A stretch of DNA of 64,000 nucleotides from Sulfurospirillum arcachonense DSM 9755 (GTDB taxonomy: Bacteria; Campylobacterota; Campylobacteria; Campylobacterales; Sulfurospirillaceae). The first letter of the stretch is position 1; each line of letters begins with the position of its first letter. Both the position numbers and the translations under genes were made by a program. The notes under the pieces were generated by a model. That model had not been told where the DNA came from, ran no database searches, and saw only the letters and a program-made list of their open reading frames with translations. The DNA lies in NCBI RefSeq assembly GCF_000597725.1, contig NZ_JFBL01000003.1, positions 1 to 64,000 of the forward strand. The letters are read 5' to 3'. This document shows positions 4,554 through 12,487 of this stretch, in pieces.

Positions 4554-5317
4554 GAAATTGGTTTGTATACTTACTTGCAAGTTTGGCATGTATAATTTTA
4601 TTGTTTTTATTGATTCCCTTAGTAAAAATGATATTTGGTGGGGATTTTTCAGTAGTATGGGAAACTTTTCAACAAAAAGATGTTTTAGATTCTATTTATT
4701 TGACTATGAGAGTCTCTTTTATGGCAATGCTTTTTGTCTTATGTACAGGATTGCCTTTAGCATATCTTATTTCAAGATATGACTTTTTTGGAAAGTCACT
4801 TGTTGAAGCGCTTATTGATATTCCTACAATGATACCTCATACCGCTGCTGGTATTGCACTTTTACTAGTTTTTGGAAGAGGACCTATCGCTGAATTTTTT
4901 GTTACTTTTGGTATAAAATTTTCTGATGCAGAACCTGGGATTATGATTGCTATGATGTTTTTATCTGCAACATATTTGATAAATGGGGCAAAAGAAGGTT
5001 TTAATAAAGTTGATATAAAATTAGAAAAAGTTGCTCGAACACTTGGAGCAAATCCTCTACAAGTTTTTTTAAAAATCTCTATTCCAAATGCAAAAAAAGA
5101 CATTATCAATGGAAGTTTGATGATGTGGGGAAGAGGATTGGGAGAGTTTGGTGCGGTGGTGATTTTAGTATATCACCCTATGGTAGCACCTGTTTTGATC
5201 TATGATAGATTTACAAGTTATGGACTTGCTCATTCTGCACCAGTAGCAGCTATTATGATTATGATATCAATTATGATATTTTTAAGTGTGAGGTTTTTGA
5301 ACAACAAATTGAAGTAG
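4550..5317 (+). CDS. wtpB: Tungstate/molybdate ABC transporter permease
   Basis: Inner-membrane channel with about six hydrophobic segments. The EAA loop that contacts the ATPase appears as EKVARTLGANPLQVFLKISIPNAKK, split here by position only: it spans roughly residues 158-182 of this 255-residue protein. The ATG at 4550 overlaps the ATPase stop (ATGA) and is preferred over an in-frame TTG at 4541. The order substrate protein, ATPase, permease completes a standard oxyanion importer. Confidence 0.88.
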   Translation: MRNWFVYLLASLACIILLFLLIPLVKMIFGGDFSVVWETFQQKDVLDSIYLTMRVSFMAMLFVLCTGLPLAYLISRYDFFGKSLVEALIDIPTMIPHTAAGIALLLVFGRGPIAEFFVTFGIKFSDAEPGIMIAMMFLSATYLINGAKEGFNKVDIKLEKVARTLGANPLQVFLKISIPNAKKDIINGSLMMWGRGLGEFGAVVILVYHPMVAPVLIYDRFTSYGLAHSAPVAAIMIMISIMIFLSVRFLNNKLK

Positions 5318-5354
5318 ATATATGCAAATATCGCATAATATCAATAAAAATTGT

Positions 5355-5373
5355 TAAGTGAAAAACTCACTTA
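5355..5373 (+). terminator. Weak terminator-like hairpin after the transporter operon
   Basis: TAAGTGA (5355-5361) and TCACTTA (5367-5373) pair perfectly around AAAAC, 38 bases after the permease stop. The following bases are T-rich but not a clean T run, so termination would be partial. Confidence 0.4.
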
Positions 5374-5409
5374 TTTATGTTAAAATAATAGAAAATAATA
5401 AAGGAGGAA

Positions 5410-5595
5410 ATGATGTTTGTAAGATTAAATGATAGAGTTTATTTAAACACGGATAGAATTACGCGCATAAAGATTGATGAAGTTCAAGATGGAATTAGAA
5501 TTCGTTTTTATGAAGGTGCATTTCAAGTAGCAAAATCTCATAAGTTTGCAACAGTTGAAGATGCTGCTAAGTGGATTAGTGATAATATGAAATAA
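5410..5595 (+). CDS. Small conserved-looking protein of unknown function
   Basis: 61 residues, soluble, mixed charge, with no signal peptide or motif I recognise. A strong ribosome site (AAGGAGG, 5401-5407) precedes two consecutive ATG codons, so translation may start at 5410 or 5413. A region resembling a -10 box (TAAAAT) lies at about 5381-5386. The gene stands alone between the metal importer and yedF, with hairpins on both sides, so it may be its own transcript. The good ribosome site and regular codon use make it a likely real gene. Confidence 0.65.
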   Translation: MMFVRLNDRVYLNTDRITRIKIDEVQDGIRIRFYEGAFQVAKSHKFATVEDAAKWISDNMK

Positions 5596-5629
5596 AAAGT
5601 AGTTACTTAACTGCTTTACATGTAAAAAG

Positions 5630-5644
5630 GCCTAAGGTTTAGGC
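5630..5644 (+). terminator. Possible weak terminator after the small protein
   Basis: GCCTAA and TTAGGC pair around GGT, just after a TACATGTA palindrome (5617-5624). There is only a short T stretch a few bases later, so this is a tentative call. Confidence 0.25.
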
Positions 5645-5759
5645 AGACATTTTCTACAAAACTAGTGATAACGGTTTTACGTTAGTAAAAAGTTTCTTTG
5701 AAAACTGATTTTCTTTTGAGAAAATTATCTGTCTAAATAAAATAATAATTGGAGATAAT

Positions 5760-6350
5760 ATGAATATAGATTGCCGTGATTTGGCATGTCCAGAGCCTGT
5801 TATAAATACTAAAAAATCACTTGAATCATTGGGTGATGAAGGTATCTTAGAAGTTTTAGTAAACTCAACTGCATCAAAAGAAAATGTAATAAGATTTGCA
5901 ACAAATGAAGGTTGTAGTGTAAGTGATGAAAGTACTGAAGATGGTTCTGTAAAAATAACTATAGTTAAAGGGTTTGCTTGTGGAATTACCACCGAAGAAG
6001 AGGGTGACAAATTTCTCAATAAAGTACTTTTTCTAAAAGATGATAAAGTAGGAGACAATGAGCTTGGAAGTATGCTTGTTGTTGGGTTCTTAAAAAGTAT
6101 CTTAGAGTTACCAAAACTTCCTAAAACAATTATTTGTGTCAATAGAGGAGTCTTTTTAACTTCGGCTGCTGCTGATTCTGATATTATTAATATTTTAAAA
6201 GTTTATGAAGAAAAAGGTGTAGAAATCTACTCTTGTGGTGTATGTTTAGACTTTTATAAACGAAGTGATGAGTTAAAAGTCGGTATGGTCGGAAATGCAT
6301 ATGGAACAGTTGATATGCTTTTAAATTCGGAGGGAACTATAACTTTATAA
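5760..6350 (+). CDS. yedF: YedF, selenium-metabolism TusA/DsrE-like protein
   Basis: Two-domain protein of 196 residues. The N-terminal TusA-like domain has the CPEP motif (Cys10) of persulfide or selenide carriers; the C-terminal half resembles DsrE with cysteines in IYSCGVCLDF. YedF proteins commonly sit beside selD and are thought to help deliver selenium, though the exact reaction is not settled. The stop overlaps the selD ATG (TAATG at 6348-6352), so the two are translated together. TTGGAGA precedes the start. Confidence 0.88.
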   Translation: MNIDCRDLACPEPVINTKKSLESLGDEGILEVLVNSTASKENVIRFATNEGCSVSDESTEDGSVKITIVKGFACGITTEEEGDKFLNKVLFLKDDKVGDNELGSMLVVGFLKSILELPKLPKTIICVNRGVFLTSAAADSDIINILKVYEEKGVEIYSCGVCLDFYKRSDELKVGMVGNAYGTVDMLLNSEGTITL

Positions 6351-7381
6351 TGAATAATAGTAGTAAATTAACCAAGTATGTCAAAGCTGCTGGTTGAGCT
6401 GCCAAACTGGCTCCGGGTGAGCTTACAAAAGTGATTGGTGCTCTTACATGTAAAGACGAAAACCTACTTGTAGGAATAGAGTCAAGCGATGACGCGAGTG
6501 TTTATAAAATAGACGATACAAAAGCTTTAGTGCAAACTGTAGACTATATTACTCCTGTTGTTGATGACCCTTACATGTATGGGCAAATTGCTGCTGCAAA
6601 TTCACTAAGTGATATATTTGCTATGGGGGCTGATGTTACAACAGCACTCAATCTTGTAGGCTTTGATGGTTGCAATCATCCTAAAGAAGTTTTAGGTGAG
6701 ATTTTACAAGGTGGTCTTAGTAAGGTCAAAGAGTGCGGTGGTCTTATTGTTGGTGGACACACTATAGAAGCTCCTGAGATGACTTATGGTCTTAGTGTAA
6801 GTGGTTTAATACATCCTGATAAGATTTATAGAAACAATACTCTGCGAGTTGGAGATGTTTTAATCCTCACAAAACCTATAGGTATGGGTGTTTTAACAAC
6901 AGGCATAAAAGCAGATATGCTTAAAGAGAGTGCAGTTGAACATACAGCTTCTATCTTATCTCAACTCAATCATAAAGCATCATTGCTTATGCGTGAGTTT
7001 GATGTGAGTGCTTGTACTGATGTTACTGGTTTTGGATTGGCTGGTCATGCCTATGAGATGAGTAGCGGGGCTTTTACTCTTGAGTTTGAATTTGAAAAAA
7101 TCAATATTTTAAAAGAAGCAATAGAACTTGCGAATATGGGAATAATCCCAGCCGGAACGTATAATAATAAAGCGTATTTAGATTTACATGTAGATGTAAA
7201 AAAAGCATACAAAGATGAGATATTTTTCTATGATGCACAGACTTCTGGTGGTCTTTTGATAGCCGTTAAAGAAGAAGATGCAACTAAGCTTTTAGTCAAA
7301 CTCAAAAATGAGGGTTATGAATATAGCTCAGTTGTAGCAACTGTGAAAGAGTTTAATGGTAAGAGTCTAGTTTTAAAGTAG
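6350..7381 (+). CDS. selD: SelD, selenide water dikinase, itself a selenoprotein (in-frame TGA = Sec16)
   Basis: SelD makes selenophosphate from selenide and ATP for Sec-tRNA synthesis. The frame beginning at ATG 6350, coupled to yedF, reads through a single TGA at 6395-6397. Around it the protein is AAG-U-AAKLAPGEL, matching the SelD active-site loop where Cys or Sec lies before the catalytic Lys (GCGCK-type in E. coli). The rest is standard SelD: DDASVY, GFDG, VGGHT, DVTGFGLAGHAYEM. Total 343 residues with Sec. An ordinary gene finder would begin after the TGA (first in-frame GTG at 6431) and lose the active site. Presence of tRNA-Sec at 12308-12406 supports real decoding. Confidence 0.94.
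6398..6425 (+). promoter_or_regulatory. Candidate bacterial SECIS hairpin of selD
   Basis: Directly after the TGA, GGCTC (6409-6413) pairs with GAGCT (6419-6423; one G-U) around the loop CGGGT. The loop lies 17-21 bases after the TGA and carries GG, as expected for a SelB-binding SECIS element. The lower stem is weak, so the fold needs calculation. Confidence 0.6.
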
Positions 7382-7388
7382 ACTCTTA
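7360..7388. terminator. Bidirectional hairpin spanning the ends of selD and the MFS gene
   Basis: TAAGAGTCTA (7360-7369) and TAGACTCTTA (7379-7388) are a perfect 10-bp inverted repeat with a 9-nt loop. It covers the selD stop codon and the stop of the convergent transporter gene, which lie only 4 bases apart. T-rich sequence follows on the plus strand. Confidence 0.65.
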
Positions 7389-8534
7389 TTTAATATATTT
7401 TGTAAGTAAGAATGCCATTGGAATACATCCAACTGCTAGTACATTACAGATGATATAGGTTGTTTCAAGACCTAGATGATCTCCTAAAAGACCTACTCCA
7501 AAGACTATAGCAGAGCTTACTCCAAAGTTGATAGACATATACATACTATTCATAAAAGTAGGCATGTGAGAGTTTGTGTCCTGTACTGTTGCCATCAAAA
7601 CTGGACCTGTTGCAAAAAGGAACAAACCAATCAATGGAAGAACAAAAATACTATCAAAATAGATAAAAAGAGCCATACTTATAGCTGAACCAATACTTGC
7701 TATGGCAAGTGTGCTTTTACGACCAATCCTATCAGAAATGTTTCCAGCTACAAATGTCCCAAGAACTCCAAAAAACTGTAAAATAGACAATGAAATACCT
7801 GCATGCCAAAGAGATTCCCCTTGAGCTACTAAATAAACAGGTAGATAAAGGGTTAAGGTACTTTTCATACCTGATTGAAAGAGTAAAAAACTTCCCATAA
7901 CAATAAAAAATGGATAGTATTGTTTTAAAAGTTTTTTAGTATCACCTTTTTCTTTTGGTTTTCTAAGAGGTCTATTTGTATCAAAGTCTTTGAGTTTTAT
8001 ATAAAGAATAATAGAAGCAATAAGTCCTAAAGGCATAAGTTTATAAATACCTTCTAATCCCCACCAAGAAACACCAGCAGTTGCAATCAAAGGACCAATA
8101 GTTCTTGCTAACTCTCCTCCAACCATAAAAAAGCTCATCCCTGTTCCAACTTTTTGGCCTGAACTCTCTTTAATCATAGTAGGAGAAGGGACATGAAACA
8201 AAGCTGCACTAATCCCTGCAACAAAAAGTAAAATAAAAAGTATGACGTAAGATGAAGCAAGTCCAACTAAACTCATGCTTATTGCTGTTATAGCAGGAGT
8301 AAGGATAACAAAGTATTTAGCGCCCGTTTTTTCCGCAATAAGACCAAAAAATGGATTAAACAGAGCTGGAATACGTCTAGCAATATCTAAGAAAGCTGCC
8401 ATAAAAAGAGACATCTCAAGCTTTGCTATAAGCAAAGGTAAAAGCGGTGCTAAAAAAGATGAGTAAATATCATGAGATAAGTGGGCAAAAGAAATTGTAA
8501 AAACTTTTGCTTTTTGAAATGTTTTATTTTCCAA
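7386..8534 (-). CDS. MFS exporter related to fosmidomycin resistance protein Fsr
   Basis: Inner-membrane drug:proton antiporter family protein with about 12 hydrophobic segments over 382 residues. The opening FAHLSHDIYSSFLAPLLPLL and the later GQKVGTGMSFFMVGGEL match the Fsr branch, and a loop of MFS type reads NISDRIGRKS. The start ATG at 8534 is preceded by AGGTCC. It points toward selD and ends within 4 bases of it. The real substrate is unknown. Confidence 0.8.
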   Translation of the reverse strand: MENKTFQKAKVFTISFAHLSHDIYSSFLAPLLPLLIAKLEMSLFMAAFLDIARRIPALFNPFFGLIAEKTGAKYFVILTPAITAISMSLVGLASSYVILFILLFVAGISAALFHVPSPTMIKESSGQKVGTGMSFFMVGGELARTIGPLIATAGVSWWGLEGIYKLMPLGLIASIILYIKLKDFDTNRPLRKPKEKGDTKKLLKQYYPFFIVMGSFLLFQSGMKSTLTLYLPVYLVAQGESLWHAGISLSILQFFGVLGTFVAGNISDRIGRKSTLAIASIGSAISMALFIYFDSIFVLPLIGLFLFATGPVLMATVQDTNSHMPTFMNSMYMSINFGVSSAIVFGVGLLGDHLGLETTYIICNVLAVGCIPMAFLLTKYIK

Positions 8535-12307: not shown

Positions 12308-12373
12308 TGGCGAGAAGGTGTAGGAATCGAACCTACCTTCAGACGGTCAACCGCCCAAACATCGGGTTTGAAG
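12308..12373 (-). repeat. Attachment-site repeat inside intact selC
   Basis: The proximal copy of the 66-bp direct repeat; see the identical copy at 10153-10218. It covers the anticodon loop through the CCA end, so integration kept the tRNA whole. Confidence 0.88.
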
Positions 12374-12406
12374 CCCGTGCTGCCCACCAGGGTCAGATAC
12401 CCCCCA
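12308..12406 (-). tRNA. selC: tRNA-Sec (anticodon TCA)
   Basis: Read on the minus strand, the gene has the TCA anticodon in the loop CTTCAAA with a CGGG/CCCG stem. It has a long variable arm (GGGCGG / CCGTCT around TTGA), a T arm GTAGG-TTCGATT-CCTAC and an encoded CCA end. The long variable arm and extended acceptor mark it as selenocysteine tRNA. The acceptor pairs GGGGGGT with ACCTTCT, with several G-U pairs and a likely U1-C72 mismatch, so the exact 5' end (12405 or 12406) is uncertain. A TATAAT box at 12427-12422 sits 16 bases upstream. It decodes the TGA of selD and presumably of formate dehydrogenase. Confidence 0.92.
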
Positions 12407-12487
12407 CTTACGAGGAGTATAATTATACATTATTATTTGTAAAAAATAGCTTACCAACTTACTTGATTGTTTAATATGCAGGAGATT

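Follow-up and report, generated by a model that had tools for sequence, protein, structure and literature searches.

The downstream gene of a yedF-selD pair near the start of contig NZ_JFBL01000003.1 of Sulfurospirillum arcachonense DSM 9755 carries an in-frame TGA at its sixteenth codon. The locus therefore raises the question of whether this codon ends the gene or is decoded as selenocysteine (Sec). In the window, by which we mean the whole stretch of 64,000 nucleotides that was analysed, the surrounding frame, the genes for Sec decoding and the homologous loci of other genomes were compared. We conclude that this selD is almost certainly a selenoprotein gene in which the UGA at 6395 is decoded as Sec16 via the hairpin at 6409-6423. 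The features of the locus are collected in Table 1.

Table 1. Features of the yedF-selD locus and the tRNA-Sec gene, in window positions
Feature	Position	Strand	Basis or remark
yedF, selenium metabolism protein	5760..6350	+	TIGR03527 199.8 bits, cut-off 110
selD, selenide water dikinase, Sec at residue 16	6350..7381	+	TIGR00476, PF00586, PF02769, phmmer to 2yye/3u0o
N-terminal stretch of selD lost with GTG 6431 start	6350..6430	+	carries Sec16 and Lys19 of G-U-A-A-K
UGA selenocysteine codon of selD	6395..6397	+	sole recoded codon in frame; TGA/TGC/TGT among relatives
Apical hairpin of bacterial SECIS, predicted	6409..6423	+	arms 6409-6413 and 6419-6423, loop 6414-6418 (CGGGU)
tRNA-Sec, anticodon TCA	12308..12407	-	ARAGORN; RF01852 57.3 bits vs 47 at 12312-12407

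Frame and identity of the selD gene

With the TGA read as Sec, the selD frame gives a protein of 343 amino acids, about 37 kDa as estimated from its length, with one recoded codon. The open reading frame under translation table 11 starts at GTG 6431 and gives 316 amino acids, with residues 1-27 missing. The TAA stop of yedF and the ATG of selD have base 6350 in common, and a GGAGG site ends ~14 nt 5' of this ATG, which is a long spacing. The initial annotation had placed the in-frame TGA of codon 16 at the catalytic Cys/Sec position, had proposed that the true ATG overlaps yedF, and had warned that automatic callers would start selD at 6431 and remove the active site. The coordinates of the TGA proved exact, the overlap amounts to one shared base and the table 11 frame is the truncated one that was foreseen. 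The correct start and Sec16 together restore the active site of a SelD that is otherwise headless under the standard gene call. Upstream, between yedF and a transport operon (modABC-like by eye), lies a 61-aa open reading frame at 5410-5595 (+) with a GGAGG site before it, for which profile and Pfam family searches returned no family match.

The full-length protein matches the TIGR00476 equivalog model at 359.6 bits (cut-off 125) over profile positions 1-310 of 311, and contains the Pfam domains PF00586 and PF02769. SelD proteins carry their catalytic motif near the N-terminus, where Cys or Sec and Lys occur in G-[CU]-x-x-K. In the window gene the motif reads G-U-A-A-K at residues 15-19, and phmmer alignment to the SelD structures 2yye and 3u0o sets the Sec against the Cys of GCAAK (2yye) and of GCGCK (3u0o). 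Judged by these matches, the window gene is SelD.

The genome assembly (2.66 Mb, 42 contigs, 99.99% complete) encodes SelA (519.2 bits, cut-off 267.9), SelB (282.9 bits, cut-off 242.25) and MnmH (299.5 bits, cut-off 219.75). The four genes of the Sec-decoding trait, selA, selB, selC and selD, are all present. A search of the genome for YedE (TIGR04112) at E 0.001 was negative. Four FDH-like genes of the genome each contain one in-frame TGA, their matches coming in pieces and none above the model cut-off. In all four, the sequence after the TGA can fold into a 5-bp stem topped by a GGU loop; this stem is part of the minimum free energy (MFE) structure in two of them, while the other two favour a different hairpin. 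FDH-like alpha genes with a TGA lie on contigs C28 and C29 and are perhaps near-repeats that broke the assembly. At the edge of the window's own contig (C3), positions 21-881 resemble a formate-dehydrogenase cytochrome subunit by eye. A scan of single-TGA frames in the window, judged by eye, gave no convincing second selenoprotein.

With these components, ribosomes would begin at ATG 6350 and then reach UGA 6395, where SelB with Sec-tRNA-Sec, held by the hairpin, would place Sec as residue 16. The predicted activity of the resulting SelD is the conversion of selenide and ATP to selenophosphate, which SelA would use for Sec-tRNA and MnmH for selenouridine. SelD would then both produce and consume Sec, implying feedback on its own supply.

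The hairpin and its conservation in Sec-type relatives

The hairpin of the window gene, GGCTC-CGGGT-GAGCT, has 5 bp and GGG in its loop, lies 11 nt 3' of the TGA, and was contained in the MFE structure in two separate folding analyses. For a sequence encoding the peptide LAPGEL with the window's own codon preferences, the chance of all five pairs is 0.067, and that of the five pairs together with CCG is 0.002. CCG accounts for 3.0% of the Pro codons in the window, and it is this rare codon that sets the G run in the loop. Folding energy was dropped as evidence for a SECIS, the energy at the site being not unusual (z -1.00, with 35 of 200 shuffles folding equally well), also when compared with synonymous shuffles (z -0.70, p 0.20). 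A search of window positions 5000-8000 against Rfam, at E values up to 5, returned no SECIS match and seven chance-looking matches. As the folding energy is ordinary, the case for a SECIS rests on where the hairpin lies, on its presence in relatives, on covariation and on the choice of codons.

The nearest named relatives are the metagenome-assembled genomes (MAGs) of Sulfurospirillum sp. BB15 (85% identity) and S. arcachonense (83%). In the window gene and 59 relative loci the Sec position is TGA in 47, TGC in 7 and TGT in 6, as located by a pattern that allowed only a stop or Cys and matched in all 59. These are the readable loci out of 60 relatives, one of which (L076) begins after the site. 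Twenty-three of the 60 loci come from other phyla and were read for the codon alone; the hairpin alignment covers Campylobacterota. The loci nearest to the window gene, L017 and L018, have TGA and not Cys. We considered whether some relatives have no normal start codon; this was ruled out, as every Sec-type site tested has ATG, GTG or TTG at least 10 codons upstream.

Within the family, a selD match (E 1e-40) was found in 39 of 44 genomes, with one in-frame TGA in 19 and none in 20. All four selD-bearing genomes of the genus, the present one included, have one in-frame TGA. The family genomes with no selD match are G037, G040, G025, G031 and G035; both G025 and G035 were searched for SelA and SelB with no match, and tRNA-Sec was matched in G035 and not in G025.

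All five standard pairs are present in 44 of 44 distinct Sec-type Campylobacterota selD genes, the window's included, in a comparison that holds 14 Sec-type genes from outside the family, hand-picked by kinship before their hairpins were seen, and from which five Sec-type family genes (G004, G011, G008, G003 and G009) are absent. For the family, 30 of the 39 selD matches came as loci, and G034, G017, G015 and G027 were added later. The hairpin Pro codon is CCG in 43 of these 44 genes, compared with 47 of 432 downstream Pro codons; the sole exception is L061, with CTG (Leu). On 40 distinct Sec-type rows, 100% of cells are paired and two pairs are altered on both sides, compared with 20-51% of cells in slid controls. 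At the third, central pair, genes with C-G encode Ala and Glu, and those with G-C or G-U encode Gly and Asp; the protein residues thus follow the RNA pair. A comparison of Sec and Cys genes by energy z was set aside. Over all phyla the means were -0.89 (47 Sec) and -0.34 (13 Cys; Mann-Whitney p 0.027), and inside Campylobacterota they were -0.67 (26) and -0.37 (11), which was too weak and ignored kinship.

Two other readings of the TGA were weighed. It could be a true stop or a sequencing error, leaving a pseudogene or a SelD that starts at GTG 6431 without its active-site loop. The standard code does yield the frame from 6431, but TGA stands at this same codon at 47 of 60 sites from many assemblies and Cys at the other 13, the hairpin is intact in every one of the 44 Sec-type genes, and the stretch preceding the TGA shows conservation at the protein level, so that we regard this as extremely unlikely. 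UGA read-through exists in general, and decoding by another amino acid (e.g. Trp or Cys, by a near-cognate tRNA) has nothing specific in its favour here; with a complete Sec machinery in the genome, a SECIS-type hairpin with covariation, and Cys as the usual alternative at the site, it is highly improbable.

The decoding of UGA 6395 as Sec16 agrees with the remainder of the initial annotation. The stem with a GG-containing loop that it had seen at SECIS distance is the conserved GGG-loop hairpin, and the alignment to Sec- and Cys-type SelD that it had called for gave the 47 TGA and 13 TGC/TGT codons. Against its own reading it had set the combination of Cys codons in relatives and missing selA and selB; SelA, SelB and tRNA-Sec were found in the genome and TGA in the nearest relatives. 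Its view that the novelty is local, Sec-SelD being known in some bacteria, also holds, as the available text of Cravedi et al. 2015 (PMC4607533) reports Sec-SelD for the same class, together with SECIS hairpins and truncated GenBank selenoprotein entries in Epsilonproteobacteria/Campylobacterota. The window gene resembles the Sec-SelD of that text in its Sec codon, in the apical hairpin of 5/6 bp that follows within a few nt and has an invariant G in its loop, and in the truncation of database entries; nothing basic separates the two in the portion available. According to Mariotti et al. 2015 (PMC4561486), 19% of the SelD genes that they detected in their reference prokaryotes encode Sec, and the residue invariably occupies this position. 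The selD of the window belongs to this already published Sec-SelD type and is ordinary in kind.

Retention of the hairpin in Cys-type relatives

The part of these results that is worth a specialist's time is the hairpin retained in Cys-type relatives. The Cys-type set, among the matches listed, consists of 20 distinct genes of a genus coded g4, which is named Sulfurospirillum in most records with a genus name, and 21 genes from other genera, the latter being the 22 stop-free rows outside the family, among the matches listed, minus one with Leu. Among the matches listed, 38 Cys-type selD genes lie in genomes that have Sec machinery; all five pairs are found in 34 of them, and CCG is kept in 35 of the 38 versus 46 of 380 downstream Pro codons. 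Since most Cys-type relatives have the same hairpin, the hairpin alone is no proof of Sec insertion. The incomplete hairpins in machinery-bearing genomes retain 1 (G172), 3 (G222), 2 (G104) and 4 (G303) of the five pairs. Three further Cys-type genomes, G115, G212 and G249, gave no match for SelA, SelB or tRNA-Sec, and none of their genes has all five pairs (4, 1 and 1, respectively). The link between hairpin and machinery (34 of 38 versus 0 of 3) is weak, as G172, G212 and G249 form one clade and G172 has the machinery.

For the 38 genomes, SelB, SelA and tRNA-Sec were each found in 37; the SelB match is above cut-off in 36, and the SelA match of G032 comes as two pieces. G030, which is 86% complete, has tRNA-Sec and the hairpin, with neither SelA nor SelB found; in G024, 78% complete, tRNA-Sec was not found. 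Over the whole Cys set 88.9% of cells are paired on 18 distinct rows, and covariation is weaker than in the Sec set. Nine Arcobacter-like Cys-type genes have CCG at the site, and in eight of them this codon occurs nowhere else in the stretch that was read. The tRNA-Sec anticodon is TCA in all six Cys-type genomes checked (four of g4 and two Arcobacter-like), which speaks against an altered tRNA-Sec anticodon in these genomes, and none of 55 genomes had a second tRNA-Sec match at E 1e-7.

Two groups of sequences depart from the common pattern. The Arcobacter-like locus L122 (genome G318) has TTA (Leu) at the Sec position, with an intact hairpin and with SelA, SelB and tRNA-Sec in the genome; TTA is one base from TGA, and the codon may stem from an error in sequencing or from the catalytic residue having been lost. 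In genus g16 (L133-L136 and L149), four Cys-type and one Sec-type selD have a 7-bp hairpin, UAGACCC/GGGUCUA, or the same with one G-U. The peptide is altered to LDP(S/L)GL in these genes, the protein having changed around the RNA.

The Sec and Cys forms are distributed across the SelD tree. On a tree made without the N-terminus from 84 rows (42 Sec, 41 Cys and 1 Leu), the distribution of the three states takes 14 changes to explain, and the well-supported branches force at least nine Sec/Cys changes among the sampled Campylobacterota, counted in either direction and with gene transfer not set apart. This contrasts with the rarity stated in the available part of a 2026 review (PMC13188914), in which Sec-to-Cys changes are described as rare and mostly in FdhA and SelD.

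Codon constraint and possible uses of the Cys-type hairpin

Codon conservation was assessed at columns with invariant amino acids that have four or more codons. In a Cys-only Sulfurospirillum-like clade (16 rows, support 97/96, downstream DNA identity 0.76-0.95), 7 of 8 such columns are codon-invariant at +1..+10 versus 3 of 106 after +12 (P 2.3e-8), as are 4 of 6 before the site. In an earlier 19-row version of the test 9 of 96 columns were invariant, all within -9..+10. The frozen stretch of the Sulfurospirillum-like clade spans -45 (the ATG) to +36 in 15 rows, with L037 omitted as its record starts too near the site. Nine Sec-type rows from another genus of the family gave a weaker excess of the same sort (4 of 7 versus 2 of 91, P 1.4e-4). 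No significant excess was seen in the five Sec-type rows that surround the window gene (P 0.56), for which only 10 columns beyond +12 were usable. In the Arcobacter-like Cys clade, seven rows in all, the test fails (0 of 6 columns, P 1), the hairpin having been lost in G222; leaving G222 out, an exclusion chosen after looking, gives P 0.012. The codon-level constraint across the whole Sulfurospirillum-like clade suggests that the Cys-type hairpin is in use.

It is quite possible, if short of probable, that the Cys-type hairpin is a mere relic of a recent Sec-to-Cys change. The close intermixing of Sec and Cys forms, with at least nine changes on well-supported branches, means that conversions may be recent, and G222, G104, G172 and partly G303 are without the hairpin despite having SelA, SelB and tRNA-Sec. 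Remnant SECIS-like structures after Cys codons are also known for FdhA and a HesB-like protein; these are the two examples in the accessible text of Zhang et al. 2006 (PMC1794560), where a hairpin outliving its UGA is described as a remnant. The selD genes are like them in that a Sec-decoding organism has replaced Sec by Cys and still keeps the SECIS-like hairpin, and differ from what that text describes in their number and in the codon-level constraint of one clade. That constraint weighs against a relic, which would drift like the rest of the gene and not leave 7 of 8 invariant columns near the site of the 16-row clade versus 3 of 106 beyond it.

A role of the frozen codons in translation initiation or as an early-elongation ramp, unrelated to SelB, is somewhat unlikely. 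Such a role fits the freeze in the Sulfurospirillum-like clade, which begins at the ATG and extends beyond the hairpin, and it fits G030, which keeps the hairpin while SelA and SelB were not found at 86% completeness. However, CCG and the stem are also preserved in other families whose sequences differ, the 7-bp stem of g16 being one example, and the start of selA in 14 genomes of g4 has no such freeze, a control that is thin because only 3 columns are usable in the first ~30 codons.

Finally, the hairpin of UGU/UGC selD may stay under selection since SelB, with or without Sec-tRNA, binds it, a proposal that we consider unlikely and offer tentatively. Translation of SelD would then be set by Sec supply, or some Sec would be placed at the Cys codon, giving a Sec/Cys mixture with UGA and UGY freely interchangeable. 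As all six tRNA-Sec have the anticodon TCA, Sec at UGY would need wobble and not an altered tRNA. In E. coli, a SelB-binding hairpin without UGA recoding reportedly controls a sel operon, selAB, as Thanbichler and Boeck are said to have found in 2002; that hairpin is said to sit before selA, whereas the one considered here lies inside the selD coding sequence. Non-UGA decoding guided by a SECIS was obtained in E. coli with sel genes overexpressed, where, according to the available part of PMC3834832, UGC before the SECIS gave 75Se labelling and activity, less than UGA or UGG. The Cys codon UGC in front of a SECIS is common to both cases, but the gene in that text is an engineered rat TrxR1 and the selD genes with Cys codons are natural. 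PMC8124441, citing Mukai 2016, states that UGC/UGU are used in some bacteria together with variant tRNA-Sec anticodons.

We found no report of a retained hairpin in Cys-type selD in searches of the open-licence PMC literature. Remnant SECIS structures after Cys codons have already been noted by Zhang et al. 2006, and signs of selection on such a hairpin would be new. Were SelB to bind the Cys-type selD hairpin, the mRNA of the enzyme that feeds the Sec pool could serve cells as a sensor of Sec supply or, alternatively, Sec could be inserted at sense Cys codons; in either event, if true, Cys homologs of selenoproteins would have to be read differently. A separate observation was made on the opposite strand of the frozen stretch, where an antisense open frame of 51-54 codons lies over selD positions of about -46..+107 in all four of the loci L042, L036, L027 and L031. 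This frame is probably a by-product of the codon conservation.
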